Below, one piece after another: positions 129 through 18,626 of a stretch of DNA of 64,000 bases. Every line of letters begins with the position of its first letter. The stretch's first letter is position 1. The translations under genes and the position numbers were made by a program. This DNA comes from Anaerolineae bacterium. GTDB lineage: Bacteria; Chloroflexota; Anaerolineae; Aggregatilineales; Phototrophicaceae. The notes under the pieces are model-generated. The model did no database searches, was not told the DNA's origin, and was given only the letters and a program-made list of their open reading frames with translations. Where the stretch lies: positions 1-64,000 of the forward strand of contig JAIOHM010000003.1 in the NCBI GenBank assembly GCA_019912965.1, in the 5' to 3' direction.

Positions 129-749
129 CTATGGGTGTGGCACTCCGGTTGGGAAGGTCGATGTGGGCTGGAAAGGATCAGGCAGAGTTGGGAACGGCAA
201 TGGGACATCGGTGGTAGGCGTCGGTGGTATACCACCCGGAATTACAGTTATTTGTGGGAATGAAGTTGCGATAAGTTGGTTGTTACCTGGAGCCCGGGTT
301 GCTACCACCAGCGGCGGAACAGTGACACTGGTCAAAAAACCGGCCACATAACCCGTCACATTATTGGGCAGCGCGATGCTGTGCCAGCCATCCACAGTTG
401 CAATAACCTGAATCGCATCCCGATAATTGTAGGTCATAATCACATTACAACCCGTTGACGGACAAGCGCGCACATTTGCCCCTCCCGCATTGTTGATATA
501 CCAAGTGGTCAAACTGATCTGGGCCGATGGTTGGTTGGGTGGCAAATCGGTTGAGGTCGCAGTCGGTAGTGGAGGCGGCGCGGGTAGATTACCGCTTGGT
601 TGGCTAAAAGTGGCTGTAACAATAATGATTTGTGGGGCAGCAGTAGGTGTAACGACGCTGCTTGATGTTGTGTTGAGGTTACAGGACGCGATAGCTGTCC
701 CCATAAATACGAGGATGAGCAGGGCAAAGCTGCCCCGCTTCGTTTTCAT
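129..749 (-). CDS. SH3b-domain lipoprotein
   Basis: Signal peptide with lipobox-like ..TAIASC; SH3b-like segment NVRACPSTGCNVIMTY..GWHSIALPNNVTGYVAGFL. Confidence 0.75.
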   Translation of the reverse strand: MKTKRGSFALLILVFMGTAIASCNLNTTSSSVVTPTAAPQIIIVTATFSQPSGNLPAPPPLPTATSTDLPPNQPSAQISLTTWYINNAGGANVRACPSTGCNVIMTYNYRDAIQVIATVDGWHSIALPNNVTGYVAGFLTSVTVPPLVVATRAPGNNQLIATSFPQITVIPGGIPPTPTTDVPLPFPTLPDPFQPTSTFPTGVPHP

Positions 750-2455
750 GTTCCCCCTCCTTTGATCTGATTCAAACGCTGATCGATGTCTGATTTGAAA
801 TCCGTGTTGGGGTCTAAAGTTAATGCCTGATTGAATGCTATCTCGGCTGCCGCATCATCATTTTGCTCATCGTAAATCACGCCTGACCAGTAATATCCGA
901 TCACCGCCAAAGTCTTGAGCACCTCATCTGGCGACGCTTTGTATGAGTCGATGGCAACCTGATAATAAGCAATCGCTTTTTGCGCCAGATCAGCTTTTTG
1001 CGCCAGATCAGCGATCAAATATTGGATGGCGTAAATATTGCCAAAGCCCACATTGGCTTTTTCAGTAACATGAGCACCATAAGGCTGATTTTCCAAACGG
1101 AGCGCCTGACTAAAATACGAGAGCGCGGTAGCAAAGTTCTCTTGCGCGGTAACGATATCTCCCGCAGCATAATCGTTTCGGCCTCTGTCGTAATACACAT
1201 TCCCTTCCGCCAGCACCGCTCGCCCATAATTAGGGTTAATTTCGAGCGCCTTTTCTGCGTTTTCTTGCGCGCCATCCAGATCATTGTCCAACCGTGCAAT
1301 GGTTGAACCGAACAGATAGAGGATTTCTATACCCTGTTTTTGATCAGTAGTCTCGGCGGTTTTGATAGCATTATCGATAGTGGCATGAGCGCGTTGAAGA
1401 TCGTTTGAGATGAGATAAGCCAGTGCTTTTGTAAATTCGATCAACACCGAAGTGCGCTGTTGCAGAACAGTATAAAAAATGCTGCTCCCCGCCGAAATAT
1501 CCTGAGTCGTAAAATCAATCGGCTGGTTCAGTTGATACAACCCCACCAATTCACCCACTTCGGAGCGGTACCGTTCTGCAACGTAGAAGCGAGGGGAAAG
1601 CGAGGCGGTATTGCCATCGCTGCTGACGATCACATCCCCATAAATCACCACATGCGCGTTGATGTTTTTCGCCAGTTCTTTCGCCTCAGACGCATTGTTA
1701 ATCACGCCGATGCGATCACTGGTCACCTGTACATCAAAACCGAGGATGTCCGATTGGTACTCCGTATCGAGGATGCCCAACAATCGCTGCCGAACAGCGT
1801 CTGAGACGGCAACCGGGGCGTTTTCCGGTACTTGTTTGAAGGTCGCCACCGCGACATTAAACTGCCCGGTCATATACGGCGGCTGCGACAAATACCAACT
1901 TGCTCCGGCTGCTCCCACAATGCCCAGCACGAGGAATAACAGCAGTAGGCCAATCAACAACGGACTGAATTTCCGCTGGGTCGACACGGGTTTCGGATGG
2001 GCATCTTCCCATTCGTCAAGCGCCTGCATCAGCTTGACTCGAAAATCATCAACACTGGTGAAGTAAATGCGAATCAGGTCTTTGCTGATTCGGTCTTTAA
2101 AAGTTTGAACACGTGCGGGGTCATCGCGGTATTGCGGGGTATTCGGCCACTCATATTGCGGGTGAACGATGAAACATAACCGTTCCAGTTGCCGTTCCCC
2201 GGCATAATCAAATTCAATTTCGGTGACGCTTTTATCGTAGCCGTCCTCGATGTAGCCGTAGCGGTGGGCAAAAATCCCCACATACAGATCGGCTTCATCC
2301 AGTTTGCGTTTGCTGCCTTCGGTCGCGCCTACGCCCATCGGGCCGAAATATTCCATCCCAATCGGCAAAAACCCAAGCCGGAGGCAAACCTCAATCGCGG
2401 CCTTTCGATATTCGGTTAAGTCCAGACTGGTGCTGCTGATGAAGACGTTAGTCAT
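746..2455 (-). CDS. DUF4062 domain protein with TM segment and C-terminal TPR-like repeats
   Basis: N-term MTNVFISSTSLDLTEYRKAAIEVCLRLG..EMDEADLYVGIFAHRYGY-type DUF4062 motif; hydrophobic LLIGLLLLFLVLGIVGAAGASWYL; TPR-like helices at the C-term; 4-nt overlap with the downstream SH3b lipoprotein. Confidence 0.8.
   Translation of the reverse strand: MTNVFISSTSLDLTEYRKAAIEVCLRLGFLPIGMEYFGPMGVGATEGSKRKLDEADLYVGIFAHRYGYIEDGYDKSVTEIEFDYAGERQLERLCFIVHPQYEWPNTPQYRDDPARVQTFKDRISKDLIRIYFTSVDDFRVKLMQALDEWEDAHPKPVSTQRKFSPLLIGLLLLFLVLGIVGAAGASWYLSQPPYMTGQFNVAVATFKQVPENAPVAVSDAVRQRLLGILDTEYQSDILGFDVQVTSDRIGVINNASEAKELAKNINAHVVIYGDVIVSSDGNTASLSPRFYVAERYRSEVGELVGLYQLNQPIDFTTQDISAGSSIFYTVLQQRTSVLIEFTKALAYLISNDLQRAHATIDNAIKTAETTDQKQGIEILYLFGSTIARLDNDLDGAQENAEKALEINPNYGRAVLAEGNVYYDRGRNDYAAGDIVTAQENFATALSYFSQALRLENQPYGAHVTEKANVGFGNIYAIQYLIADLAQKADLAQKAIAYYQVAIDSYKASPDEVLKTLAVIGYYWSGVIYDEQNDDAAAEIAFNQALTLDPNTDFKSDIDQRLNQIKGGGT
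975..1010 (-). repeat. Perfect 18-bp tandem duplication (GCTTTTTGCGCCAGATCA x2) inside the TPR region
   Basis: Direct reading; gives DLAQKADLAQKA in the protein. Confidence 0.9.
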
Positions 2456-2527
2456 TCAGCACCCCCAATTTTCATGTTATTTACATAGTAACATTAATTG
2501 AGGGTTTTGTGAATTTATCCGATTCAA

Positions 2528-2553
2528 AAAACGCCACATTGCTGCGGCGTTTT
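2528..2553 (-). terminator. Intrinsic terminator downstream of sigA
   Basis: AAAACGCC..GGCGTTTT stem; reads into a T-run on the minus strand. Confidence 0.7.
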
Positions 2554-2572
2554 CATTTTTTGGGGAGTTCAG

Positions 2573-3712
2573 TTAAGAAAGATAATCGCGTAACTGGCGA
2601 GCGCGGCGCGGGTGACGCAGGCGGCGTAAAGCGCGGCCTTCAATCTGGCGGATGCGTTCACGCGTCAGGCCAAATTTCTGCCCAACTTCTTCCAGCGTGT
2701 AACAGCGACCATTTTGCAGACCAAAGCGCAGGCGCAGGATGCGGGCTTCGCGCGGGGTCAGGGTGCTCAACACGGCTTCAATCTTCTCGCGCAGCAGATT
2801 GTCGTAAGCATACTGCGTCGGGGTTGGAGCACTGTCGTTCTCGATAAAGTTGCCAAGTTCGCTGTCTTCATCTTCGCCTACCGGATGTTCCAAACTGAGG
2901 GGCTGCCATGATACCCGCAGCATCCACTGGACTTTGCGCGGCTCGACCTGCATTTCGGTGGCGATTTCGTCGGGGGTGGGTTTGCGCCCATATTCCTGTT
3001 CAAGCTGGCGGGCGACACGGTAAAGGCGGCGGATGCGGTCGCTCATGTGGACGGGTACGCGGATGGTACGTCCCTGATCGGCAATCGCGCGGGTGATGGT
3101 CTGCCGAATCCACCAGGTCGCGTAGGTGCTGAAGCGGAAGCCCCGGCGGTAATCAAACTTCTCGACGGCTTTCATCAGCCCCAGATTGCCTTCCTGAATC
3201 AGATCGAGGAAGGGGACGCCGCGCGACATGTAACGCTTGGCGATGGAAACTACCAGCCGGGTATTGGCTTTAATCAGGTGGTCGCGGGCATTGATGCCGT
3301 CTTCGACCGTCAGCCGCCATTCGAGGGCATGGGTGCTGCCGGGGTCTTTCAGCAGTTTGGTCTCACAGCCCAAACCCGCTTCCAGCCGGATTGCCAGCGC
3401 AATTTCTTCTTCGGTGCTGAGGAGGGGAACGCGCGCCATTTCCTTTAGATACAGCCCAACCGTATCGCTGGAGGCCAGCGCGTATATGTCGTAGTCTTCT
3501 TCGTATTCTTCGTCTTCCAAACTCAACTCATCATCAAAATCATCTTCCATAAAATCATCTTCAAGCCCAAAGTCCTCACCTTCACCCATCGCAAACAACA
3601 TATCATCAAAAGGTTCGGCATCGGGCGCATCCGGGATGTCATCCTCGAAGAAATCGGCCTCCGGTGCGAAGTCCATCTCGGTATCGTAATCATGTTTGTT
3701 ATAGTCGACCAT
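2573..3712 (-). CDS. sigA: RNA polymerase primary sigma factor (sigma-70, SigA/RpoD)
   Basis: Regions 2-4 motifs: [71 protein letters not shown]. Confidence 0.95.
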
Positions 3713-3748
3713 AACTACCCCCTAAGGCGCAAAGTAAAACCGTATACA

Positions 3749-4270
3749 TTATTCGAGGAATTTCTTGAAACCGGCGAGGCGGGGATCAACCGCTTCTTCG
3801 GCACAGGTGCAGGTTGTGTGATTCCAGTTCGCGCCGCATTCCGGGCAAAGCCCTTTGCACTCCGGGCGACAGAGGAACCCGCGTGAAGATACAATCAGCA
3901 CTTCAGCGCGCAGCAGCGGTGCTAAATCCAAAATGCCATCATCATGCAAACTAAACTCGGCAGCAGTTGGGGAGGGGTAGGCAAATAGTTCTTCGACATT
4001 GACTGTGACATTTCTTGTCACAATATCCAGGCAGCGATAGCACTCCCCGGATATGCCCACCTGCAACTGCCCCTGTACCAGGATGCCTTCCGCCGTGCGG
4101 CTGAGGCGAATGGGGCCGCGAACGTAATTAGCGGTGAGATCGTCGGCGATCCTGACTGTTGGTACGTCGAAAGTCGAGTCATGATTGTGACCGGGGCCGC
4201 TGCTTAACAGAAACCCTACGTTGATCTTCAAAACCCGATTACTAACATACCCACTATGAGACTGATTCAC
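3749..4270 (-). CDS. DUF177 (YceD-like) family protein
   Basis: GECYRCLDIVTRNVTVNVEELFAY and C-term CRPECKGLCPECGANWNHTTCTC. Confidence 0.85.
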   Translation of the reverse strand: MNQSHSGYVSNRVLKINVGFLLSSGPGHNHDSTFDVPTVRIADDLTANYVRGPIRLSRTAEGILVQGQLQVGISGECYRCLDIVTRNVTVNVEELFAYPSPTAAEFSLHDDGILDLAPLLRAEVLIVSSRGFLCRPECKGLCPECGANWNHTTCTCAEEAVDPRLAGFKKFLE

Positions 4271-4628
4271 CGCGTGATGCCCTGGTTATAAACCGCTTGT
4301 ATGCGGTTTCAGACATTTGATCTTTACAAAGTATATGAAGTTTCATTTGTTTGTGTCAAGATTTGAGACAACGACTAAACTAATTTCCTACCGAATTTTT
4401 CGTATTTTTTATCAGTGTGACCATTTTTGTCACAACATTACGGTGTTCATAGACACACTGTCTATTAAATTGAGAGTCTTAATCCTTTGTAAAGGCGACC
4501 TTTACGTTTATTCAAGAATCATTATGCGGATAAACCGAGACAGTATGAACCTTCATAATTGGGGGATTGGCGGTGCTGTGATTTCAATTACGTGTTAATA
4601 TATTCACAGTGCCACACCTCTCCACCGG

Positions 4629-7600
4629 ATGACGGTTATGATCGGAACGCGGCTCGGCCCATACGAACTTGTAGAAGAAGTCGGCAAAGGCGGCATGGCG
4701 ACGGTTTACCGTGCCTACCAGCCCGCTATGGATCGTTATGTTGCTGTCAAGATTATTCACCGTTCGATTGCTGCTGATGCCCTCAGTCTGGAACGGTTTC
4801 AGCGCGAGGCACGTTTAGTCACAAGGCTGGAACATCCGCACCTGCTGCCGATCTATGATTACGATGGCGCACATGACCCACCCTACATTGTCATGCGCTA
4901 TCTGGAAAGCGGCACACTCAAAGAGGTGCTGGATCATGGCAGCGTCCCCCACGAGGAAATGATCTACATGCTGCGGCAGATCGCTGCGGCGCTGGATTAC
5001 GCACACCGACGGGGCATCATCCACCGCGACATTAAACCGTCCAATATTATGATCGATCAGGATGGCAATGCTTTCCTGACGGATTTCGGCATCGCCCGCA
5101 TGACCGAGGCGGGACAAGGTTTGACACAAACCGGTTACACGGTCGGCACACCCGGTTACATGTCACCGGAACAGGGCATGGGGGCGGAGGCGGTCGATCA
5201 TCGCGCTGATATTTATTCGCTGGGCGTGATGGTCTATCAGATGCTCACCGGGCAAATGCCCTACAGCGCCGAAACCCCGTTGGCCGTTATCCTCAAACAT
5301 TTGAATGATCCCGTGCCGCGCGCCTCGGCTGTCAATGAATCGATTCCGCCCGCAGTGGACGACGTGCTGACGAAAGCCATGTCCAAAAAACCGGGCGACC
5401 GTTATGACACGGCAGGCGATTTTGTGACCGCGCTGACCAATGCCATCGGCGCGGCAATCATCAACACGCCAGTGAATTTACGCCGTGCGGCACAGCAAAG
5501 TATCGACGGCGCGGCGACCCTGCGGGAACAGAAACGCGAACAGATCGAACGCACGATGGCTGAATTGGCTGCCAGTCGTTCCTTGACGGCTGCGCCTGCC
5601 CCGACGCCACCCGCTGCGGCGGTCATCGAAGATGGGCCAACGCTGCGAACGCCGACCGATCAACGTGCCGTGCAGCCGCCCACAACCGTTATTTCATCAC
5701 CACCACCGCGTAATCAACTGCCCATCATTATCGGCGCAGTTGTCGGGCTGATTGCCATTGTCGCCCTGATCTTTTTGCTGATTAACAACGATGGGGACAT
5801 TGAACCCACGCTGACGCCTACCCTTCAGCAGCAAATCGCCGCTGCCCCTACCGACACCCAAGCCCCAACGGCTGATCTGAGCACCCCTTCTGGTGGTGGG
5901 TCAGGCGATGCCGAAAGTGCGACGCCCGCTTCGAGCGATACGGCTGCACCAACCCACACGCCAGAGCCGACCAACACATCTGAGCCGAGCAGTACACCGA
6001 CGCCATCCACCCCGGCGGCGCAAAGCCTGCGAAGCATTATCGCCCGCAGCGGCCCCGGTTCGCAGTATCCCAAAGTGGCTGATGTACCCAGCGGTCTGGA
6101 ATTGGAAATCGTCGGCATCAGCGAGGATGGCGGCTGGTTGAAGGTGATTTTGCCAGATGGCGCTGAAGGCTGGTTAGCCGCATCGGCAGCTTCGATTATA
6201 ACGGTGGGGAATTTGCAGGCCGTTCCGGTGGCGTTGGCTCCAACGGATACACCAACATATACATCCACGCCCACCGATACCCCCACCGATACGCCGACCC
6301 ATACGCCGACATCGACCTTCACGCCGACAGATACACCCACCAATACACCAACGGACACGCCGACCAACACGCCAACGGATACACCAACGGCGACCAATAC
6401 ACCCACCGCAACACCAACACCAAGCGCGACTTCGACGCCCAGCAGCACACCGACATATACATCCACGCCGACTGAAACGGCGACCCATACACCGACCAGC
6501 ACGCCCACGCTGACGCTGACGCCCACTTCCGAGTCCAGTTCCACACCCCTGCCACCACCGCCACCGCCGACGCCTATCCCGGCTGGTCAGCTTCCTTATG
6601 TAGCCGATTTTGAAGGCGAAAATGCCGTCACAGGCTGGGACTTTGACCCGGCCATCTGGCAGGTTGTGACCGAAGGCGGCGAAAATATCCTGATCGGACA
6701 GGGACGTTTACAACAGCCATTGGTCGTCCTCGGTCTGGAACGCCCGGAATGGCTGGAAGCATCGGTCAACGATCTGGTCATCAGCTTCAGCATCCGCTTT
6801 GATCCACAGACGGGCGGCGCGCGGATTATCTTCCGCTGTGCTGATGCAGGTGGATGCCCCGGCGGTTACAATGTGTTAGAGATTTTCCCCGGCCTCCTGA
6901 GCCTGAAGCGCAACGCCCCCACGCCGGATATTTTCGGACGGGAAAATGAGCGCGTCCTCAAGACCGATAACGCCCCGATTGGCGAAAACGAATGGCATAA
7001 TCTGACCATCTGGGTGCAGGGCAGCCGGATTTTCATCTATCTGAACCGCCAGTTGGTGATGAATCATGAAGACCTGATTCCGCCACAGTTAGGCGCGGGC
7101 GCAATCATCCTGCAAACCAACAGTGCCCAACGTGCCGTCCGATTCGATAATTTCATCGTTCAGCGCCCGGAACCCGCCAGCGATCATTTTCAGGGTTCGG
7201 GTCTGCCGCCGAACTGGCAGACCACCAGCACCACCAATACCACCATTGGGCAGGAAAGCGGCGGCAACCAATATCTGCAAATGCAGGGCGAAACGGTGGT
7301 GACGCCCAATGTGCTGCCCATCCGTGACCTGAATCTGGCCTGCCGCGTGTGGGTTGAACAGGGCGGCTACCGGCTGACCATTCGCCAGAATCCCGGCGGC
7401 AGTTTTGTGATGGCCTTCGATGCGGGCGATGTAACCATGACTCATCTAGATGGTGCGGGTGGCATCGTCGCGGAAAACCGCATTCGCAACTTCTACAACC
7501 GCAACCGCTGGGAAGATTTGAATATCCGCTTTATTGGAGATCGGCTGGAAATCTACCGCGATGGGGTCAGCCGTTTTGAAGAAACCCTGCCCGGTTCGCC

Positions 7601-8384
7601 CGCTGCTGGAGGCATCACGCTGGAAACCCGGCGTAACGACATCCTCCGCCTCGACGACTGTCTGATTGTTGAAACCGCCGCCAGTCGCAACGCCGGGGCG
7701 CGTTTTGCCATCGACCTTCGCCAGCAGGTCGCCAACCGTGATTTCCGCGAACTCCGCAGCGATTTGACCGAAGATTTTGCCGATCCCTTCCGCACCGATG
7801 ATTGGTGGGGCGAAGGCCGCAACGCGCCGGGGCAGTATTTCGAAGATGCTGGATCGCCGAATCATCAGCGTTTCTTGCGGATGACCTACGACCCCCGCGC
7901 CAGTCATCGGCTGTTCCGTCCCAACATCGGCGTCGAAATTTTCGGCCCCGGTCAGGACATCCGCAATTTCCGCGATTCAACCGATGTTTTGGTATCGGTG
8001 GAAGTCCGCTTCCACGAATCGGTGGGTATCGCATGGCTCGGCGTCCGTTCCACGCCCACCATCAGCGGGGCGGAAATCAACGGCTATCGAATCGAACTCC
8101 GCCGCAACCCGGACGGCACAACCGATGCCATCGTGCGTTATCAAGATCCGAATGTGCAGGAAGTCTACTTTGAAGGGCCAGTCCCCGGCGAGGCAGGCGA
8201 GTGGATCACGATTGAGGTCATCACGTTCAAAGAGAAAGCCGCCTTTTTCGTCAACGGCCAATTCGTCGCCGCCATCGAAAACACCCTGACCTACGGCGGC
8301 ACAATCGCCCTCGGCGTCGGTGAAGGCGTCACTGCCGACTTCGACACCCTCATCATCCGCGACACCACCCCGCATGACCAATAG
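4629..8384 (+). CDS. Membrane Ser/Thr protein kinase with SH3b, Thr-Pro-rich linker and C-terminal LamG/DUF1080-like domains
   Basis: Kinase motifs GKGGMATVYRA, HRDIKPSNIM, DFGIAR, GTPGYMSPEQ; TM LPIIIGAVVGLIAIVALIFLLI; TPTDTPT repeats; repeated jelly-roll-like segments. Confidence 0.9.
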   Translation: MTVMIGTRLGPYELVEEVGKGGMATVYRAYQPAMDRYVAVKIIHRSIAADALSLERFQREARLVTRLEHPHLLPIYDYDGAHDPPYIVMRYLESGTLKEVLDHGSVPHEEMIYMLRQIAAALDYAHRRGIIHRDIKPSNIMIDQDGNAFLTDFGIARMTEAGQGLTQTGYTVGTPGYMSPEQGMGAEAVDHRADIYSLGVMVYQMLTGQMPYSAETPLAVILKHLNDPVPRASAVNESIPPAVDDVLTKAMSKKPGDRYDTAGDFVTALTNAIGAAIINTPVNLRRAAQQSIDGAATLREQKREQIERTMAELAASRSLTAAPAPTPPAAAVIEDGPTLRTPTDQRAVQPPTTVISSPPPRNQLPIIIGAVVGLIAIVALIFLLINNDGDIEPTLTPTLQQQIAAAPTDTQAPTADLSTPSGGGSGDAESATPASSDTAAPTHTPEPTNTSEPSSTPTPSTPAAQSLRSIIARSGPGSQYPKVADVPSGLELEIVGISEDGGWLKVILPDGAEGWLAASAASIITVGNLQAVPVALAPTDTPTYTSTPTDTPTDTPTHTPTSTFTPTDTPTNTPTDTPTNTPTDTPTATNTPTATPTPSATSTPSSTPTYTSTPTETATHTPTSTPTLTLTPTSESSSTPLPPPPPPTPIPAGQLPYVADFEGENAVTGWDFDPAIWQVVTEGGENILIGQGRLQQPLVVLGLERPEWLEASVNDLVISFSIRFDPQTGGARIIFRCADAGGCPGGYNVLEIFPGLLSLKRNAPTPDIFGRENERVLKTDNAPIGENEWHNLTIWVQGSRIFIYLNRQLVMNHEDLIPPQLGAGAIILQTNSAQRAVRFDNFIVQRPEPASDHFQGSGLPPNWQTTSTTNTTIGQESGGNQYLQMQGETVVTPNVLPIRDLNLACRVWVEQGGYRLTIRQNPGGSFVMAFDAGDVTMTHLDGAGGIVAENRIRNFYNRNRWEDLNIRFIGDRLEIYRDGVSRFEETLPGSPAAGGITLETRRNDILRLDDCLIVETAASRNAGARFAIDLRQQVANRDFRELRSDLTEDFADPFRTDDWWGEGRNAPGQYFEDAGSPNHQRFLRMTYDPRASHRLFRPNIGVEIFGPGQDIRNFRDSTDVLVSVEVRFHESVGIAWLGVRSTPTISGAEINGYRIELRRNPDGTTDAIVRYQDPNVQEVYFEGPVPGEAGEWITIEVITFKEKAAFFVNGQFVAAIENTLTYGGTIALGVGEGVTADFDTLIIRDTTPHDQ
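6231..6545 (+). repeat. Degenerate ACNCCNACN tandem repeats coding for the Thr-Pro linker
   Basis: (TPTDTPT)n in the translation of the kinase gene. Confidence 0.85.
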
Positions 8385-8391
8385 GGGTATA

Positions 8392-10842
8392 CTATGGTTT
8401 TCTCTTTACTAGATTCCAGCTAATGTTACCACAATCACATCGCATACTTTCAGGTGATATTTTCTTATCAAGACGTAAAAGTTGATTGCAATCTGGGCAT
8501 ACAAACAAACTATACAAATCCTTAAAGGCATTAACAAGAGGCCTGAACTCAGAAACAGACAAATTTTCCCAGTTATTGTAATGAATCGTTGCATTTACCT
8601 CCCATTGATCAGCCTCTATTCTGCTGTAGATTGACTTTTTCATATTTATTTGATCGGTTAAGTAAACTTTAAGTTCTTCTTTTTTCCATGATTCGGCGGA
8701 TTTTATTGCGCTATTTAACCATTTGTCATACTGACTTACCACTGCTGGTAGAAAATCCCCTAGAACATATTGACCATCCAAACGAAACATTACTTGCGCA
8801 GCTAGGTTATCGCACATTTCGCGAAAGAATTCTTCAGCCCATCGCCTTAACTTTCCTGATGCAGAAGTGATATTATTCTCATCTAGGTCTTTGTAGATTC
8901 GATCCCATACATCAATCTCAGTATTTATTTTGGGGCCAGTGGCGATATGCCAACCATACAACTCATATGTCCCATTTTTATCAACGACCTTTGCTCCTTT
9001 TAGCTGGTTGTACCATGTTCTGTCGTGGGTAGCAATCAATAATTGGTTATCTTTAAACGTCGTAGCTAAAACTCTGCACAATTCTTTTCGGTGTCCTGCA
9101 TCTACCGACATTACGACATCATCAAGAATAATTAACTTCATACGATTTTGTGTAAGTCGCTCAGACAGTGCTAAGAAAAGACATACTCCCATACTATCTT
9201 GATGACCTTCACTATGCAGAGCATGAGGGGGATGCATACCGCGTCCATGAAAATCTACTTCAAGATTTAACCCTGCTCCGTCAGGTTCAAGGAGGGCTGA
9301 GAAATCACCTTCGTCTTCTTGATGCAATTGACGATATAGCTGTTCAAAACGTGTTTTTATTTCTCCATAAAGCTTGCCTAGTATTTCATCCCTTGATTTC
9401 AGAAAAACAAATTCCAGTTTAGTTGCTCTTTCCGATGCACTTTTTGCTGTTGCATAGGTTTTATATTCTTTTTCCCAAGTTGACAAAGCTAATTCAAGTT
9501 GAGTTAAGCGGTTATAGGCTGTTTGTTCAGGGCTTACGGATGGATATGCCTCTGATACTATTTTTTGGGCCTCATTCAGTATTTGAGAAACATCTATCGG
9601 GGAAAATAATGTGTGTACTTTTTCCTCATCAAGATTTTCATCGAGATAATTTCCCTTAGATATTGCATCTGTTAATCTTATTAAGTTATTCTGCCATCTT
9701 TTGAGAGTTCCTACTATGGTTTGAGAAGGCATATTATCTATTGCCGCAATTATTTTTTTCAGACTGGCTGTAGCGAAAGAAACTATATCAGAGATCGTTT
9801 TTGTCCCTTGGGCAATCCGCCCTTCATATTTTTGAGCTTCTTCTGCATTTAATATCTGATTTTCCAGTCGTTGCTTCAACTCGCCTAAAGGCCAAGGGGT
9901 ATCACATAATGGACACCATCCTGTTTCATCAAGCAATTCTAGCCCAAGTGTAGCAAGTCGCTGATGTTTTAGTGCATGTGATAAAACAGAATTATCTCTT
10001 ATTGTTGCCAAATCTGATCGCAATGTGCGATCTAGATTGGCAATATTCTGTCGAGTTTCTGAGGTCAATGCTTTTTTTAGATTAGCAATATCACCTTCGA
10101 TAATTGACGGATTGGTAAATCCTTCTTCTGATGCCTTAATAGAAAAAGCGATGTTGGACTTAATGTGACTTGAGTTCAGTGAAGTTATCGGCTCTGCACC
10201 TAACAAAATTCTGTTTTGATTCACGAACTTCAATACCACTTCTTTGTCAAACGACATTATTCCGACAATACTATTTATCTGTCCCTCTACAGCACTAATA
10301 CCGCCTTGAGCATTTTTGAGATTTTTTTCAAGATCGCCTTGTACTTTGCCAAGAGATTTTCGGGCAACTTCGACTTGGCTCAAATTTAGAAGTGATTGGA
10401 TTTGCTCGGCTCTTTCACCGGGCTTCGAGGTAATGTATTTAAGAAGCTCTCTTCGGGTTAAGATGTGCTGACCTAACCTCGCCAGCGACAGGACATCCTC
10501 AATCTGTGAACGCACACCTTCATCACATTCGAGTTTTTCAGGATTTAATAGTGAACGCTTTATTTCCACCTCTTTATTGTTAACCAGTTTAACGCGCGCT
10601 CTGACGAAAGAATCTTCTAATTTCGCATCAACATGCTTTCCGTGTTTCTTGAGGGTGATATTTTTTGTTCCAGCTCCAGTAAGGCGAGTTATATTTCCAG
10701 TGAGTAGGAAATCTATAGAATCTATGATAGAGCTTTTGCCTGACCCATTTGGGCCACTAATAACTATATTGTGGCCTGCAGGTCGTAATAGAAGATGTGA
10801 GACACCCCGTACATTACTGATTTCAAATTCAAGTAGTTTCAT
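8392..10842 (-). CDS. SMC/Rad50-like AAA ATPase with internal CxxC (zinc-hook-like) and C-terminal Zn-ribbon
   Basis: Walker A ISGPNGSGKSSIID; WCPLCDTPWPLGELKQRL; Walker B-like LIILDDVVMSVDAGHRKEL; C-term FVCPDCNQLL..MRCDCGNISW. Confidence 0.85.
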   Translation of the reverse strand: MKLLEFEISNVRGVSHLLLRPAGHNIVISGPNGSGKSSIIDSIDFLLTGNITRLTGAGTKNITLKKHGKHVDAKLEDSFVRARVKLVNNKEVEIKRSLLNPEKLECDEGVRSQIEDVLSLARLGQHILTRRELLKYITSKPGERAEQIQSLLNLSQVEVARKSLGKVQGDLEKNLKNAQGGISAVEGQINSIVGIMSFDKEVVLKFVNQNRILLGAEPITSLNSSHIKSNIAFSIKASEEGFTNPSIIEGDIANLKKALTSETRQNIANLDRTLRSDLATIRDNSVLSHALKHQRLATLGLELLDETGWCPLCDTPWPLGELKQRLENQILNAEEAQKYEGRIAQGTKTISDIVSFATASLKKIIAAIDNMPSQTIVGTLKRWQNNLIRLTDAISKGNYLDENLDEEKVHTLFSPIDVSQILNEAQKIVSEAYPSVSPEQTAYNRLTQLELALSTWEKEYKTYATAKSASERATKLEFVFLKSRDEILGKLYGEIKTRFEQLYRQLHQEDEGDFSALLEPDGAGLNLEVDFHGRGMHPPHALHSEGHQDSMGVCLFLALSERLTQNRMKLIILDDVVMSVDAGHRKELCRVLATTFKDNQLLIATHDRTWYNQLKGAKVVDKNGTYELYGWHIATGPKINTEIDVWDRIYKDLDENNITSASGKLRRWAEEFFREMCDNLAAQVMFRLDGQYVLGDFLPAVVSQYDKWLNSAIKSAESWKKEELKVYLTDQINMKKSIYSRIEADQWEVNATIHYNNWENLSVSEFRPLVNAFKDLYSLFVCPDCNQLLRLDKKISPESMRCDCGNISWNLVKRKP

Positions 10843-11030
10843 TCCGTTGTTTCTCCAGATAGAGAAACGATTATGTGACTAATTTGTTTTGGATCAGATA
10901 GTTGATTTTTGTTCATAAGTAACTTTAATTCGCTAATCAACTGTGTGTTAAAAAGCTCATCTTTTTCTAGTTGAGCCAACATGTCATCGAAAATTTGCTG
11001 AATAATCGATTCATTAGGTTGTATGGTCAT
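10839..11030 (-). CDS. Small (63-aa) conserved-partner candidate, translationally coupled to the ATPase
   Basis: Stop TGA overlaps the ATPase start ATG (ATGA); same AT-rich composition. Confidence 0.6.
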   Translation of the reverse strand: MTIQPNESIIQQIFDDMLAQLEKDELFNTQLISELKLLMNKNQLSDPKQISHIIVSLSGETTE

Positions 11031-11143
11031 AGCCCTTAAGTCACTTAACTGCCAATAATCGTGTTGTGTATTCCTCTTTATTTACTATATAAGTGTTTGG
11101 AAATGTGTGCAACACATGTTACGGTTTTCATATGATGATGTAC

Positions 11144-11240
11144 TTAACAATCCCGCCTCCTCAAAATGGTCGGTGAACTCGTCCCGAAAAACGTACCAAA
11201 TGATTACCCTATCTTCGTCATGATCCGGTACGCTGTTCGT
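11144..11240. repeat. ~97-bp imperfect direct repeat, copy A
   Basis: Aligns without gaps to 12657-12753; shares TTAACAATCC..CTCAAAATGG..AAAAACGTACCAAATG..GGTACGCTGTTC. Confidence 0.9.
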
Positions 11241-11264
11241 CTTTTTATCTATTTGCTTCTTTAT

Positions 11265-12518
11265 TCATTTCTCCTCAACCTGCTTTGAGCGAACCGCCCG
11301 CCGCCCCGGATCATCGCGCTGCGTGACCACTATCCGGCGGACTTGCTGATTTTCAGACACGAACGTGATGCGAACTGCATCCTGTCCATCCACATAAAAA
11401 ATGTTGGAGGCTATGGGCAGCAGCCTGTTAAGCGTATGCTGGTAGCGCAGATACAAATGCCCATCGCGCAGCACAACTTCCCGTCCGTCGTATTGGCCGA
11501 TGCAGTCGGTCAACAGCGCTTCATCCAAAATCGTCGGCTGATAATGAGCCTTGACCGTCTCCATATCCCACTGCAATCGTTCCTTTTGAGCTGGATCAGA
11601 TTCCTTGTGCCAAATCGTCTCTAGTGCATGAAGATGGGCGGTTGCCAGAGCCGTATCCGATGAGCAGACCACATCCGGCGTTATGCCTGTGCCCTGCCAG
11701 TTCCCACCTGTAATCGGATTGATGATTTGCGCGACAGGGATATTGAGGATGAAACCGTATCCGGTTGCGTGCTGCTCGGTCAAATGTGCGCCGCCCCCGG
11801 TTTGTTCCCCAACCACCACCGCCCGCCCCATCGCCTGCAAATCGTAAGCGAATTCTTCGGCTGCTGAAAAGGTGTTCCTGCTGACCAGAATGTAGGTAGC
11901 GGTTCGGGGATGTCTAACCCCCGGCACAAAGGCATGTGTCCAAATCTGAGGTTTAAAATCAATACGCGGGTCAGCATACAAATGCAGCAAACGCGGCTGT
12001 TCATCAAACAGATAGCTTGCCAACCACTGAACCATGCTCACTTCGCCGCCGGAATTATGCCGCAGATCAAAAATGATGGCCGTGCAGCCAGCCATAAGCT
12101 GCATAGCCGATGTAATGGCACTGCCTGCGCCGGGGGTTGCCAAAAAATCCCGGATGTCGATGTAACCCACCTTGCCCGTTAGCATGGCCGCTTGTCGAAT
12201 TCCAGCAGCAGGTAACCCTCCCTCAGCTTTTGCATCGGGCAGATGGTCTTGCAGTAAGTTATTCTGGAATCGTTTGAGTTGTTCTGCCTGCTCTGGATCA
12301 TACAGAAGCGAGAGGTGTCCGTCGCCTGTCAGTCTGTAGAGTTCATCCGTTAATGCGGATGCCCATTGTTCAGGCTGTTCTGTCTTTGGCAGGCGAATGC
12401 GCTCCAACTGGCGAAGCAGAGCATCAACCTGTTCGCGCAGCACATAATTTTGCTCAATCAGTCGGTTGATATTTTTGAACAGTCGGTGGGCAGTTTCAGC
12501 ATTTAGTGTGGTTTGCAT
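11265..12518 (-). CDS. S41 family (C-terminal processing/TSP-like) peptidase
   Basis: GKVGYIDIRDF..AIIFDLRHNSGGE..TYILVSRNTFSAAEEFAYDLQAMGRAVVVGEQTGGGAH. Confidence 0.88.
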   Translation of the reverse strand: MQTTLNAETAHRLFKNINRLIEQNYVLREQVDALLRQLERIRLPKTEQPEQWASALTDELYRLTGDGHLSLLYDPEQAEQLKRFQNNLLQDHLPDAKAEGGLPAAGIRQAAMLTGKVGYIDIRDFLATPGAGSAITSAMQLMAGCTAIIFDLRHNSGGEVSMVQWLASYLFDEQPRLLHLYADPRIDFKPQIWTHAFVPGVRHPRTATYILVSRNTFSAAEEFAYDLQAMGRAVVVGEQTGGGAHLTEQHATGYGFILNIPVAQIINPITGGNWQGTGITPDVVCSSDTALATAHLHALETIWHKESDPAQKERLQWDMETVKAHYQPTILDEALLTDCIGQYDGREVVLRDGHLYLRYQHTLNRLLPIASNIFYVDGQDAVRITFVSENQQVRRIVVTQRDDPGRRAVRSKQVEEK

Positions 12519-12656
12519 CGCTCAAAACTTTGTCTGTGGATTAACATCATCAGTGATGACAATAACGCCTGTAAGACGCTTCGCAATTCCCCTGCATTGT
12601 AGCATCAAACCCCGTCGAAATGCCCCATACCCGCTACCAACCGCCCTCCAATCCGC

Positions 12657-12753
12657 TTAACAATCCCCGCCCCTCAAAATGGTTGGTGAATTCGTCTCGA
12701 AAAACGTACCAAATGGTCACCCTATTTACGTCATAATCTGGTACGCTGTTCAT
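12657..12753. repeat. ~97-bp imperfect direct repeat, copy B
   Basis: See copy A at 11144-11240. Confidence 0.9.
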
Positions 12754-12833
12754 ATGAATGAAGCATAAACTCCCTGTTTGCGGAAAGCTGTTTCGTAATC
12801 GCAATCGCCGCAAACCCATCCTGTCTTTTACCC

Positions 12834-12882
12834 ATAACTAAAAACCAACGACAAGGAACTGACAACTGTGAACTGACAACTA
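12834..12882. repeat. Dispersed short repeat array (GAACTGACAACTGTGAACTGACAACT)
   Basis: Heptamer-like ACTGACA units read directly. Confidence 0.8.
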
Positions 12883-13091
12883 TTTTTGCAATTACAGCGG
12901 TCCTTCCCTCATGTCCGCCCGCCAATGACAAGACTGACAAAGCGGCGGATGCTCCCGCATTCCCGCGGCGTGCAGTGGCGCTCCCCGTGCTTCCCGCCGT
13001 TCACTGACAATCGCGCCGCGAAAACCTCCCGCGTTCCCGCCCGCCAATGCAGCGGCTTTTTTGTCACCTTAACTGCATACAGGCTTTCTGC

Positions 13092-13577
13092 TCAATCCTG
13101 ATGACGCTCCACGCTCAAGCCAATGCCGCGCATCGCTTCCGCATACGTCGCCCAAGCTGCTTGGGTAAGCGACTCGATCTCGGTTAAATCGCGCAGTTCC
13201 GGCTGCGGCTTGGCCTTCGCCCGTTCAATTGCCTGTTCTGCTTCGAGCACCTGCCGCGTCACCCGGAACAACCGTCCCACGAATGCCGCCCCGCCGAACT
13301 GCCGCTCCGACCAGCGCCAAGCCGAAACCGTCGCCGCGATCATCACCAGCGTCACCGAAATCGCCGTCAGCAGGCTCACGCCGCCGCCCGTGCCGAAAGT
13401 GCTTTCCACATACCGCAGCGCCGTCACCCCCACGCCGCCCACTGCCAGAAAAACCACCAGCGGGGCAGCAAAGGTCTTTAAAATCACCAACAGCGCCCGG
13501 TTGCTCTGCTGCTGGGAATTCCGTTTGATGGTTTCAATCAGTTCCCGTTCCCGCTGAATACTCTCATCCAATGTCAT
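13092..13577 (-). CDS. Hypothetical membrane protein (two TM segments)
   Basis: ORF with hydrophobic ALLVILKTFAAPLVVFLAVGGVGVTAL and SLLTAISVTLVMIAATVSAW. Confidence 0.65.
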   Translation of the reverse strand: MTLDESIQRERELIETIKRNSQQQSNRALLVILKTFAAPLVVFLAVGGVGVTALRYVESTFGTGGGVSLLTAISVTLVMIAATVSAWRWSERQFGGAAFVGRLFRVTRQVLEAEQAIERAKAKPQPELRDLTEIESLTQAAWATYAEAMRGIGLSVERHQD

Positions 13578-13676
13578 CGCACATCACTCCAAATAAAAAC
13601 ACAGAGCAGTATTCTACTCTGTGCCTTATACAATCGTAGGGCGGGTTGAGGAAGGTGTTGACTCGTTAGGTCACCG

Positions 13677-14009
13677 TCATCCCCCGGCTACAAAACCCAC
13701 CGACTCCTCAATCAACGCCACATCTTGTTCATAAGCCGCCGCGTCCGCGTGCTCGATGGAAACCCATGCCTTCCAGACGATGCCATCGGCAACCTCAAAG
13801 GGTTTGATGTCGCCCGCGCCCGCGATAAGTTCCTGAACCCGTGCTTCGGGCAGCTTCAGGCTGATGCCCTTCCCGCCCACAAAGGCGAATACCTTGCCCG
13901 CCACTTTGTAGGCCGGGTAGCCAAAGGCTTTTCCGCCTTTAACCCCCGGCATCCCCAGCACCATCTCATCCATCATGGCCTTCACATCGGCCTGATATTT
14001 CGCTTCCAT
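13677..14009 (-). CDS. Small TfoX/YjbR-like protein
   Basis: 110 aa; KAFGYPAYKVAGKVFAFVGGKGISLKLPEA pattern; family call tentative. Confidence 0.5.
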   Translation of the reverse strand: MEAKYQADVKAMMDEMVLGMPGVKGGKAFGYPAYKVAGKVFAFVGGKGISLKLPEARVQELIAGAGDIKPFEVADGIVWKAWVSIEHADAAAYEQDVALIEESVGFVAGG

Positions 14010-14015
14010 TTACAT

Positions 14016-15146
14016 CTATACCGTTGGGGGCAATCCGTGATGTGCCCGGATAGCGTCCTCGATTTCATCCGAAACCGCTTTATTTTGTAACAGGAATTGC
14101 TTGGAAGCCTCGCGCCCCTGACCGAGCAAACCATCGTTATAGCGGAAGAACGCACCGCGCTTCTCGATGACGCCCAATTCGACGCCCAGATCGACGATTT
14201 CCCCGACCTTGCTGATGCCGCCTTCAAAGAACATGATGTCGAATTCAGCTTCGCGGAAGGGCGCGGCTACCTTATTCTTGGTGACGCGCACTTTGGTACG
14301 GTTGCCGATGGAGTCGCCGCCCTGCTTGATGCTCTGGATGCGCCGGATGTCCAGCCGCATACTGGCATAGAATTTCAGCGCCCGCCCGCCAGAGGTCGTT
14401 TCCGGACTCCCAAACATCACGCCTACTTTTTCGCGGAGCTGGTTCGTGAACAGCACCGTGACGTTAGACTGCTTGATCGCGCCGGAGAGCTTACGGAGCG
14501 CCTGACTCATCAAACGCGCCTGCAAACCCACGAACGCATCACCCATCTCGCCTTCGATTTCCGCACGCGGCACGAGGGCAGCCACCGAGTCCACCACCAC
14601 CACATCCACCGCGCCAGAGCGCACAAATGCTTCAGTGATTTCCAGCGCCTGTTCACCCGTGTCCGGCTGTGAGATGTAGAGGGTATCGACATTCACACCG
14701 ATACGCTCGGCATAGGCTGGGTCAAGCGCATGTTCCATATCCACGAACGCGCATAAACCGCCGCGCTTCTGCGCCTGACAGATGATGTGCAGGCACAGGG
14801 TCGTTTTACCCGAACTTTCCGGGCCATAAATTTCCACAATACGCCCGCGTGGGACACCACCCACCCCGGTCGCAATATCCACCGTGAGCGAACCCGTCGG
14901 GATGACTTCCACCGCCATGTGCGCCGCATCGCCCAGCCGCAGCACAGTACCATCCCCAAAGCGCCGGGTCAGGTCAGCCAGCGTGGCTTCCAATGCCTTC
15001 TGGCGGCCATGATCTTCTGACGAGCCACCGCCTTCATCGACTTTTTCCTTGCGTTTGGAGGCCGATTTTTTGCTTTTCTTTTCCGGTTTACGAGTGGCTT
15101 CTTCGTCTTCTCCACCTTCGATTTCGAGGAAATCTGAGTCTGTCAC
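14016..15146 (-). CDS. recA: Recombinase RecA
   Basis: [77 protein letters not shown]. Confidence 0.97.
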
Positions 15147-15238
15147 GGTTGTTTTTTCCTGTTATCATTCTGGCGATTATAGGATGAATAGTTTAGCACT
15201 AAAGTTCTAAGATAGCAAGTCCAAAGGTCGTATGCTTA

Positions 15239-15784
15239 ATGAAAATATACACCAAAACGGGGGATGACGGCACTACCAGCCTGTTTTCCGGCGGGCGAGT
15301 CTCCAAGACTCATCTTCGTGTCGAGGCTTATGGCACGGTCGATGAACTGAATTCGGTCATCGGCGTGGCGCGGGCGCATCAACCCCATCCACAGACCGAC
15401 GAGTGGCTGGCACAGGTGCAGCGCCAACTATTCAACCTCGGCGCGGATTTAGCGACTCCGCTGGATGTCAAAGCCGACTGGATTACGCGGATGGATGCTG
15501 ATACCGTCACATGGTTGGAAACCGCCATTGACCAGATGACCGCCGAACTGCCTGCCCTCACCAGTTTTATCCTTCCCGGTGGTTCACTCGCCGCCGCACA
15601 GTTGCATGTCGCCCGTACCGTCTGCCGCCGTGCCGAACGCATCGTGGTCGCGCTTCAATCACACGAACCGCTGGGCGATCATGTCCTGTTGTACCTCAAC
15701 CGCCTCTCGGATTTTCTGTTCACCCTCGCCCGCTGGGAAAATCTCAAAGCCGGCATGTCCGAACACACATGGTCAGGGCGCTGA
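15239..15784 (+). CDS. PduO-type cob(I)yrinic acid a,c-diamide adenosyltransferase
   Basis: MKIYTKTGDDGTTSLFSGGRVSK..EAYGTVDELNSVIG..ARTVCRRAERIVVAL..YLNRLSDFLFTLAR. Confidence 0.93.
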   Translation: MKIYTKTGDDGTTSLFSGGRVSKTHLRVEAYGTVDELNSVIGVARAHQPHPQTDEWLAQVQRQLFNLGADLATPLDVKADWITRMDADTVTWLETAIDQMTAELPALTSFILPGGSLAAAQLHVARTVCRRAERIVVALQSHEPLGDHVLLYLNRLSDFLFTLARWENLKAGMSEHTWSGR

Positions 15785-15892
15785 TCCCCCACAGACGTTC
15801 ATTTAACACTCAGCAAAACTTTAACCTGAACTTCTAATACCCGTAATACAATAGCCTTGATCTTAATTTTGCACTCTAGTTGAGGATTTATC

Positions 15893-16600
15893 ATGCCTGC
15901 CGCTGACTCTGCCATTATCCGTAACCCCAACCGTCTGGATATTCTACGCCGACTGCAACTACTGGACACACCCACCGAACGCGCGTTTGACCGTCTGACC
16001 GAACTCGCCAGCAAGATTCTCCAGACACCGATTGCGCTGGTGTCGCTGGTCGATGAGGATCGACAGTATTTTAAGAGTCAGGTCGGACTGGGCGACCCCC
16101 TGGACTCCGCCCGTGAAACGCCGCTGTCACACTCGTTTTGCCAGCATGTAGTGGCTACCAATCAGCCTTTGATCGTGGATGATGCCCGCAATCACCCGCT
16201 GGTGCATGATAACCTCGCCATTCCTGATCTGGGCGTGATTGCCTATCTGGGGATGCCGATCACCATTTACGACGGCACTGAACTTGGCTCGTTCTGTGCC
16301 ATCGATACCAAGCCGCGTCAGTGGTCGGACTGGGAAATCGAGGTTATGCAGGAATTAGCTGCATCGGTCATCACCGAAATCGAACTGCGTGGCGAATTGA
16401 TGGCACGTCAGGAAGCGGAGGCACGGCTCGAAGCAGCCAATAAAGCACTGGATGACCGCAACCGCAAACTGAAGCGTGTGACTTCCTTCTGCCGCACGAC
16501 CATCACCCACATGCATCAGGTACTGGAGCGGGATGCATCCAAAACGGAGATGCTGCAATACCTTCAGGCCGCGCAGCGCGAACTGGAAAAACAAGTCTAG
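15893..16600 (+). CDS. GAF domain protein
   Basis: LDTPTERAFDRLTELASKILQTPIALVSLVDEDRQYFKSQVGL..FCQHVVATNQPLIVDDAR. Confidence 0.8.
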   Translation: MPAADSAIIRNPNRLDILRRLQLLDTPTERAFDRLTELASKILQTPIALVSLVDEDRQYFKSQVGLGDPLDSARETPLSHSFCQHVVATNQPLIVDDARNHPLVHDNLAIPDLGVIAYLGMPITIYDGTELGSFCAIDTKPRQWSDWEIEVMQELAASVITEIELRGELMARQEAEARLEAANKALDDRNRKLKRVTSFCRTTITHMHQVLERDASKTEMLQYLQAAQRELEKQV

Positions 16601-16728
16601 CCTACCGCATTGGATTAGGTGGGGGAAGCGATTCACTGCCCCACCTCAATCCCCTCATAAATCCTTACCCATAGCCGCTCAGACCCGTTATGTTATCATT
16701 GGCTTATCCACTAATCGAAGGATGTGCC

Positions 16729-16905
16729 ATGAAATCGTTCAAAATCATTGTCGAAAAACATGATGATGGTTATGTTGCGTATCCGGTTGGACTGAATGGT
16801 GTCATCGTTGGCGAAGGCGATACCTACGAAGACGCCCTGCGCGATGTGAAATCCGCCATTCAATTCCACCTTGAAACCTTCGAAGCAGAATTGCTTGAAG
16901 GGTAA
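16729..16905 (+). CDS. HicB-like antitoxin/YlcG-type small protein, no HicA neighbour
   Basis: MKSFKIIVEKHDDGYVAYPVGLNGVIVGEGDTYEDALRDVKSAIQFHLE; upstream GAAGGA RBS-like. Confidence 0.7.
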   Translation: MKSFKIIVEKHDDGYVAYPVGLNGVIVGEGDTYEDALRDVKSAIQFHLETFEAELLEG

Positions 16906-16948
16906 ACTCAATCACAGTATGCGGGTCTTCACCGTCTGAGGCTAAATA

Positions 16949-17989
16949 TTGATGAAATACATAATCGTGTTTCTATTTCTACAGGTCATACTGTCAGCCT
17001 TTGCCGAACGTTCAGACCGAACAACTCGTACCCAAATAAACCAGTGCAATGACGCCGAGTTGAGATTAGTGTATGTTTCCGATGAGCCAGATCGTTCCAA
17101 CATACACACAGTACTTGCAGATGGATCATCAAATACCGAATTGACAGCCGACGAAAGCTATAACCAATCCCCTATGTGGTCGCCAGATGGTCGGCGAATC
17201 GCCTTTACATCTGATAGCGAGGGCAATTGGGATATTTTTGTTGTTAATGTAGATGGCAGCGACCTACAAAACTTGACGATACACGAAGCAGAAGATACTA
17301 ATCCCGTTTGGTCACCAGACGGGAAGAAACTTGCTTTTGTATCGAATAGAGATGGCGATCGTGAAATCTATGTTTTGGATATGGCTGAATCTGAATTGAC
17401 CAATGTAACTGAAAATCCCACAGATGATTTTCTTCCAAGATGGTCGCCGGATAGCAAACAAATTGCCTTTATCACCAACCGGGAAAGCGAGTATGGTATT
17501 GCCATCTTGAACTTGGACAATGGAAATATCCTCAGTTTTGGAAGCACATCTCAAGTCAATGATATTGCTTGGTCACCTGATGGGTCACAACTTGTCTTTG
17601 GCTCAAATGCTAGTGAAAACTGGGAAATTTACACGATTGATACAGATGGTCAAAATCTTCAAAATTTGACCAATCATTCCGCTAATGATCTGGAACCGAG
17701 ATGGTCGCCCGACACTTCAAAAATGTTATTTTGGAGTGGGCGAGATGATAATCTAGAAATTTTCGTAATGAACAAAGACGGCTCAGATGTACAGAATCTA
17801 TCCCGCAATCTAAATACCGACATAGGCGGCACTTGGTCGCCCACTGGTTCACATATTGCATTTGAGTCGACTCGTCTGCAAGATGGCACTGATTTGTGGG
17901 TCATGACCACTGATGGACTAGATGCTCAAATGGCTGCCAATGATGTCGTAAATTTCTCTTACCAATGGCAGCCATGCCCGATTCTGTAG
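16949..17989 (+). CDS. TolB-like beta-propeller (PD40 repeats), secreted
   Basis: Repeats of WSPDGRRIAFTSDSEGNWDIFVVNVDGSDLQNLT. Confidence 0.85.
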   Translation: MMKYIIVFLFLQVILSAFAERSDRTTRTQINQCNDAELRLVYVSDEPDRSNIHTVLADGSSNTELTADESYNQSPMWSPDGRRIAFTSDSEGNWDIFVVNVDGSDLQNLTIHEAEDTNPVWSPDGKKLAFVSNRDGDREIYVLDMAESELTNVTENPTDDFLPRWSPDSKQIAFITNRESEYGIAILNLDNGNILSFGSTSQVNDIAWSPDGSQLVFGSNASENWEIYTIDTDGQNLQNLTNHSANDLEPRWSPDTSKMLFWSGRDDNLEIFVMNKDGSDVQNLSRNLNTDIGGTWSPTGSHIAFESTRLQDGTDLWVMTTDGLDAQMAANDVVNFSYQWQPCPIL

Positions 17990-18044
17990 AAACTTTATGG
18001 GGCAGATGATGGGCAACAAATAAAGCCCGAAAATAGGAACGCAG

Positions 18045-18626
18045 TTACCCCGGAAACCGTGCCGCCCAATCTTCCGGCTGCACCCGCGCCGCATTCGCCA
18101 CAAATGCAATCGTGTGATACCACCCCACCAAAACCAGCAGTTCCAGAATTTGTGGAATGCTCCACTGTCCGGCCAGTTCTGCCCACAACCCATCCGAAAC
18201 TGTTGATTGATCGTGTAACTCATCCACCAATCGGATGAGCAGCGCATCCCGCCCTGACCATAATGCATCCTCAGCCGATGCCGTTTTTGTCCCGGCTAAT
18301 TGTTCGGGCGAAAGACCAACTGCTGCCCCAAACGCTGCGACATGCACACCCCACTCATATTCACAACCGCAGCGAGCACACACCCGGTCAATCACCAACT
18401 CCCGTTCGCGTGCCTCCAAGGAACCTTTACCCAATAAACCTGCTCCCAAAGGCCGCATCCGGCTCATCAATTCCGGGTGATGTGCCAGTGTGCGGAACAA
18501 TTTCAATGGCTCGGCTGCTCCACCCGGCGGCATCCACTTTGCCAGCATATCAGCGGTTTCGGCATCATAGGGCGGTTGTATGGGTCCAATCCGGCTGTTC
18601 ATGGTTGACCTCTCATTCTTCGTCAT
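18045..18626 (-). CDS. Carboxymuconolactone decarboxylase family protein
   Basis: ERELVIDRVCARCGCEYEWGVHVAAFG. Confidence 0.8.
   Translation of the reverse strand: MTKNERSTMNSRIGPIQPPYDAETADMLAKWMPPGGAAEPLKLFRTLAHHPELMSRMRPLGAGLLGKGSLEARERELVIDRVCARCGCEYEWGVHVAAFGAAVGLSPEQLAGTKTASAEDALWSGRDALLIRLVDELHDQSTVSDGLWAELAGQWSIPQILELLVLVGWYHTIAFVANAARVQPEDWAARFPG

Follow-up and report, generated by a model that had tools for sequence, protein, structure and literature searches.

Gene layout and base composition of the locus

The window, that is, the whole analysed stretch of 64,000 nt, comprises positions 1 to 64,000 of the forward strand of contig JAIOHM010000003.1 (Anaerolineae bacterium, assembly GCA_019912965.1). 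At positions 8392-11030, it carries a pair of overlapping genes:

10839..11030, minus strand: gene of a small acidic protein (63 aa, pI 4.4), the upstream gene of the pair, with homologues at every locus examined
8392..10842, minus strand: gene of a predicted Rad50/SMC-like ABC ATPase (816 aa) with zinc hook and C-terminal extension
10839..10842, minus strand: ATGA start/stop overlap of both genes; a 4-nt overlap recurs in homologues

Reading frames, strand and overlap were all as the initial annotation had described them, and the ATGA overlap suggests translational coupling of the two genes. The sharp drop in base composition, which it had also pointed out, was borne out by the windowed GC content of approximately 0.39 across 9-11 kb against 0.50-0.59 in the surroundings. 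GC3 was 0.30 in both genes of the pair, compared with 0.65 in the kinase gene on one side, 0.56 in the S41 peptidase gene on the other, 0.56-0.72 as the overall range of the flanking genes and 0.66 in recA. Another local GC dip (0.43) lies at positions 17001-18000 of the window.

The flanking kinase gene (4629-8384, plus strand) encodes a 1251-aa Ser/Thr kinase with a long Thr/Pro-rich linker, an SH3 domain and several lectin-like domains. It is kept in some genus-mates (71% and 53% identical in the search for an empty site), and the DNA that follows differs in each, which indicates a variable site. The S41 gene was not found by this search, and no clean empty site emerged.

Motifs, fold and relatives of the ATPase

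By sequence and structure prediction, the larger protein is a Rad50/SMC-like ATPase with a zinc hook, and its motifs are located as follows:

10732..10755, minus strand: Walker A GPNGSGKS, residues 30-37, from the alignment of 29 homologues
9904..9915, minus strand: zinc hook CPxC (within WCPLC, residues 309-313); C310, P311 and C313 invariant, flanked by long helices in the AF2 model
9199..9213, minus strand: ABC signature SEGHQ, residues 544-548 (HSEGHQ, 543-548); S544 to H547 invariant, Q548 nearly so
9100..9135, minus strand: Walker B/D-loop LIILDDVVMSVD, residues 570-581 (LDDVVMSVD core); D574 and D575 invariant

Walker A, a WCPLC motif in a coiled coil, Walker B and C-terminal Cys motifs had already been named from the window's sequence; all of them were found again, the C-terminal Cys motifs as CPDC..CDCG, and nearly all motifs are invariant across the 29 homologues. 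Walker B ends in an invariant Asp-Asp, with Asp instead of Glu at the catalytic position. In Pfam, the ATPase matched SMC_N (8e-17), the closest solved structures by sequence were archaeal Rad50 heads, and the matches obtained with Pfam, NCBIfam, PHROGs and PADLOC were generic ABC matches only. The top PADLOC model was LmuB (2e-27, residues 25-613), which all 29 members match, and many other PADLOC models of defence ABC ATPases match the protein in part.

The AF2 model of the full ATPase (28 sequences; mean pLDDT 83, pTM 0.55) predicts an ABC head and a coiled coil that bears the hook at its tip, together with a helical domain at the C-terminus. With this model, Foldseek returned Rad50 and SMC heads, and the Salmonella Lamassu LmuACB (9hqx) appeared at rank 15.

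The small acidic partner

The pairing was followed in 43 homologues of the ATPase, which come from haloarchaea, Methanophagales and many phyla of bacteria. In 40 of these 43 family members, an ORF of 45-110 aa ends at the ATPase start; among 192 control genes taken from the same loci, 27 have such an ORF. The overlap is exactly 4 nt in 32/43 homologous pairs versus 9/192 controls. The three exceptions to the 45-110-aa rule keep a small ORF, which abuts the ATPase gene in L022 and overlaps it for longer in L115 and L116. These counts uphold the conserved two-gene pair that the initial annotation had expected. A distant member on an Aliiroseovarius plasmid (L096, 4332-6939) has a 71-aa upstream ORF with an 8-nt overlap and sits between a GIY-YIG nuclease gene and Tn7-like TniQ/TniB genes.

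Across the family, the small proteins are acidic, with a pI under 5.5 in 28 of 30, and their sequences are poorly conserved. Small protein and ATPase diverge together with a Mantel r of 0.81 (permutation maximum 0.33), a correlation that common descent alone gives too. For the 63-aa protein of the window, no convincing match was found in Pfam, NCBIfam, PHROGs, PADLOC or the PDB; likewise, the small proteins of the family matched no Pfam model convincingly, and sequence profile searches of the PDB with them yielded chance-level matches only. The small protein is very probably a subunit of some kind. A role as negative regulator of the ATPase is conceivable, with chances that we put slightly short of even.

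The C-terminal extension and its possible relation to HEPN domains

Beyond the ABC head, the ATPase continues into a domain with the following features:

8395..8937, minus strand: C-terminal extension, residues 636-816, a predicted helical bundle plus zinc ribbon (AF2), candidate HEPN-like effector
8833..8847, minus strand: R666-x3-E670 on the domain's first core helix, invariant in 29 members
8581..8595, minus strand: N750-x3-H754 ahead of the bundle's last helix; H754 invariant, N750 conserved to at least 90%
8431..8499, minus strand: zinc ribbon C782-x2-C785 ... C802-x-C804, four Cys invariant in 29 members

Among 28 members including divergent ones, E670 is invariant and R666 nearly so. 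The AF2 model of the domain (181 aa; pLDDT 88.8, pTM 0.84) consists of helices followed by the zinc ribbon, predicted with high confidence, and it places the N-x3-H motif after the third and before the last core helix of the bundle. In the main family, the second motif reads W-x2-N-x3-H, with a near-invariant Trp (W747) where the HEPN motif Rx4-6H has Arg, and because this arginine is replaced the domain may be non-catalytic. The divergent members L115 (RNLVGAH) and L116 (RNWAGAH) show the canonical HEPN form at this position (R-N-x4-H).

In hhalign comparisons, the divergent members aligned with the main family at 99.9% probability and with DUF4145-type HEPN domains at 22-27%, with both motifs in register and controls below 2%. 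The main family reached 7% against DUF4145, which is near the values of its controls (2% with reversed DUF4145, 4% with a coiled coil). Foldseek searches of the domain against PDB and viral libraries gave nothing significant (best E 0.33); the HEPN protein TM0613 had the top target-normalised TM-score among the matches listed (0.51), but with an E of 3.8. Sequence profile searches of the PDB with the domain returned chance-level matches only, no Pfam model matched it convincingly, and its plasmid matches all fall in the same ATPase family where annotated. The earlier suggestion of a HEPN-like C-terminal effector thus holds in part: motifs and topology favour it, whereas neither Foldseek nor hhalign reached significance. 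From sequence motifs and model, the likeliest reading is that the domain is probably of the HEPN type; its action as an RNase effector is an evenly balanced question.

In a short form of the pair, the small gene is kept, but the ATPase ends directly behind the ABC head and lacks the C-terminal domain. It was found on two haloarchaeal plasmids, from Natrinema and Halomontanus:

L093, 5753-7890: small gene with head-only ATPase
L094, 5753-7899: same arrangement

No common effector gene lies downstream at these two loci. Because this form exists, the sensor and the small protein are the constant core, from which the C-terminal domain can be lost, and the domain is dispensable for whatever retains the pair.

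Distribution and horizontal spread

With tblastn, 19 plasmids were found to carry relatives that cover at least 80% of the ATPase. An alignment-based search of GTDB genomes added 20 further full-length relatives in Chloroflexota, Actinobacteria, Bacteroidota, Verrucomicrobia, Nitrospirota and one Methanophagales archaeon; a scan of genome contigs with a single ATPase sequence as query returned no relatives, whereas the alignment query succeeded. According to profile searches, the family is rare and patchy at 1-3% of genomes (3/399 for Chloroflexota, 4/386 for the alphaproteobacterial class and 9/298 for the archaeal phylum). In the window's own genus, two of nine genomes have it, in different surroundings. 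An apparent internal stop in a genus-mate copy was dismissed, being the ordinary stop codon of the gene.

The tree of the family mixes phyla and domains, with the Methanophagales archaeon next to a Dehalococcoidia MAG, Gordonia next to a Chloroflexota genome and Nitrospirota grouped with Alphaproteobacteria. Horizontal acquisition, as initially proposed, is thereby backed by GC3, patchy distribution and the cross-domain tree. Two opposing outcomes were also considered, namely a vertically inherited single-copy gene without the partner and a housekeeping ATPase; neither was what we found, the latter being rejected as the gene is rare and patchy. GenBank phage records encode no relative of the ATPase. 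One predicted virus contig in IMG/VR carries a Gemmobacter copy (L041, 672-3325) near the contig end, which may be prophage cargo or the result of an over-extended prophage call.

Defence context

On a Halorhabdus tiamatea plasmid, the pair sits in a BREX-5 locus, with pglX on one side and pglZ on the other. The same position is seen in L145 (genome G972, 257-19221), where PADLOC gives the order BrxB, BrxC, PglX, pair, PglZ, BrxL. The ATPases of these two BREX loci are only 30% identical. At one locus the pair neighbours PD-Lambda-5_A (5e-233), and at one a type IIG restriction-methyltransferase together with a type IV restriction enzyme; other neighbours are, by locus, DUF499/DUF1156, DUF262, a BPTD_3080 restriction endonuclease, and DarT with RES. 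DUF499 loci are treated as BREX-related (PMC12839542). These neighbours are a case-by-case listing, and several neighbours of the pair had no PADLOC match. A haloarchaeal copy (L144, 1245-15624) lies beside genes for a DrmD/BrxH-like helicase, a type II REase-like protein and a UvrD-like helicase, and this locus is possibly a composite defence island. The neighbourhood analysis hence agrees with the defence-island context named at the outset, which is repeated and includes the two BREX loci. We consider a defence role of the pair highly probable.

Comparison with known systems

The anticodon nucleases RloC and PrrC, in which a Rad50-like ABC part is joined to a C-terminal HEPN domain, resemble the window ATPase in that the ABC head is broken by a coiled coil, which bears a zinc hook in RloC, and is followed by a C-terminal R-x3-E ... 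H; a hook of the RloC type is present in the coiled-coil insert of the head (CPxC invariant; model). However, the C-terminal catalytic triad of RloC/PrrC is Arg-x3-Glu-x36-52-His (PMC2610378), whereas the gap between Glu and His is 83 residues in the window ATPase, and the window family has an extra zinc ribbon and an obligate small acidic partner. For RloC, control is described as coming from the ATPase domain of the protein itself (PMC3710099). Pfam AAA_13 (PF13166) was absent from the matches of the ATPase up to E 1, and a search of the genome that carries it gave no AAA_13 match at 1e-40, whereas a second Chloroflexota genome yielded one at 5e-164. RloC/PrrC was rejected on the missing AAA_13 match and the wrong Glu-His spacing.

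The fusions APECO1_4465 and ERFG_01251 likewise combine an ABC ATPase with a C-terminal HEPN domain on mobile islands, but the relevant part of the source (PMC3710099) describes no small partner or zinc ribbon for them. PbeABCD, a CxC-type ABC ATPase system with DndE, also joins a zinc-hook ATPase to a small protein, which is disordered and proposed as a negative regulator (PMC10853773). In contrast, our pair has no DndE-like second protein, and the effector of PbeABCD is a separate HKD nuclease-helicase; neither PbeC nor DndD models were among the PADLOC matches listed.

When the pair was checked against PADLOC 2.0.0, the ATPase alone had partial matches to many ABC models, no complete system was obtained and the partner remained unmatched. 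The full-text literature searched holds no description of the pair, an earlier mention in ABC-ATPase conflict catalogues being possible, and no report of phage-defence activity for the ATPase family.

Alternative explanations

Lamassu and ABC-3C systems come close to the pair, as they share an LmuB-like ATPase with zinc hook, a small extra protein and a defence context. The pair could accordingly be a minimal system of this type, in which the small protein takes the place of the middle component and the LmuB-like sensor has a C-terminal domain with a docking role or with DNA or protein as its target, and without RNA cleavage; it would act by sensing of DNA structures and abortive infection. 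LmuB is the top PADLOC match (2e-27) and is matched by all 29 members, the full model retrieves Salmonella LmuACB (9hqx, rank 15), and LmuB often bears a zinc hook along with a change of the Walker B Glu (PMC10586767), which is Asp here. However, the pair has no separate effector with a docking domain: an LmuA-type gene with docking C-terminal domain is neither adjacent in the window nor consistently present in the annotated loci, and the effector candidate is instead fused to the ATPase as a C-terminal domain of approximately 180 aa beyond the end of the LmuB match at residue 613. The small proteins lie outside the known middle-component families, with no convincing Pfam match for them or for the C-terminal domain and no PADLOC match for that of the window; LmuC, the middle component, is itself missing in some Lamassu systems. 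Filing under Lamassu/ABC-3C was rejected on the missing effector and middle component, and we regard the minimal-system reading as unlikely. The kinship with Lamassu, ABC-3C or RloC that the initial annotation had drawn thus did not extend to membership, given no LmuA or LmuC, no AAA_13 and the wrong spacing; judged by sequence, the pair resembles RloC/PrrC and Lamassu in outline and belongs to neither.

Gene order, overlap, the acidic small protein and the many plasmid copies would also suit a toxin-antitoxin or plasmid-addiction pair, in which the acidic first gene encodes the antitoxin and the ATPase-HEPN fusion is the toxin, HEPN toxins being common (PMC3710099). Yet it would be unusual for an addiction module to include a large, conserved sensor of the ABC/zinc-hook kind, the pair also occurs on chromosomes and within BREX operons, and the short form retains the small gene where the putative toxin domain is gone, which leaves this explanation improbable. 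Slightly less probable again is an SbcC/Rad50-like ATPase that processes or repairs DNA ends for plasmid or genome maintenance and has no part in immunity. The Rad50-like head and hook fit this role, as does a RefSeq annotation as double-strand break repair by electronic inference, but neither the window pair nor the annotated loci contain an Mre11/SbcD nuclease as operon partner, and the rare, patchy distribution and the defence contexts speak against it. One Sphingomonas plasmid carries a separate divergent exonuclease/YhaN pair near the ATPase pair.

Proposed mechanism and significance

What the sequences offer is an obligate pair with a Rad50-like ATPase architecture, an extension with conserved polar and Cys residues, mobility and defence contexts. 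We lean towards a mobile two-gene immune module, in which a sensor of DNA ends or structures would switch a HEPN-like effector and the small protein would serve as regulator. In such a module, the small acidic protein would be produced first, with its translation coupled to that of the ATPase, and would bind the ATPase and either hold it inactive or gate its activation. Two ATPase chains would pair via the zinc hook and, with ATP, via their heads, and this dimer may sense DNA structures typical of an invader, such as ends, hairpins or replication intermediates, like Rad50 and Lamassu. Engagement of the heads would unite the two C-terminal HEPN-like domains into a composite RNase site (R666, E670, N750, H754), and cleavage of RNA (tRNA or mRNA) could then halt the growth of the infected cell or of the invader. 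More tentatively, and with somewhat less confidence than would make it probable, the pair may represent an undescribed bacterial and archaeal immune family, in which the small acidic protein controls a Rad50-like sensor fused to a divergent HEPN-zinc-ribbon RNase with Trp in place of the usual catalytic Arg. On this view, BREX loci would have acquired it more than once, each time with pglX and pglZ on its two sides, as a further layer of defence.

None of the profile sets searched has a name for the pair, and genome surveys probably miss the ATPase or mis-call it as LmuB. With its repeated occurrence inside BREX operons, the pair is a candidate backup effector upon inhibition of BREX. If the proposed reading is true, it would be a compact defence module across domains, with sensor and effector in one chain and a partner of 55-75 aa as the switch, and it would provide a tractable case for how Rad50-like ATPases convert the sensing of DNA into a toxic output, a question that is shared by Lamassu and RloC.
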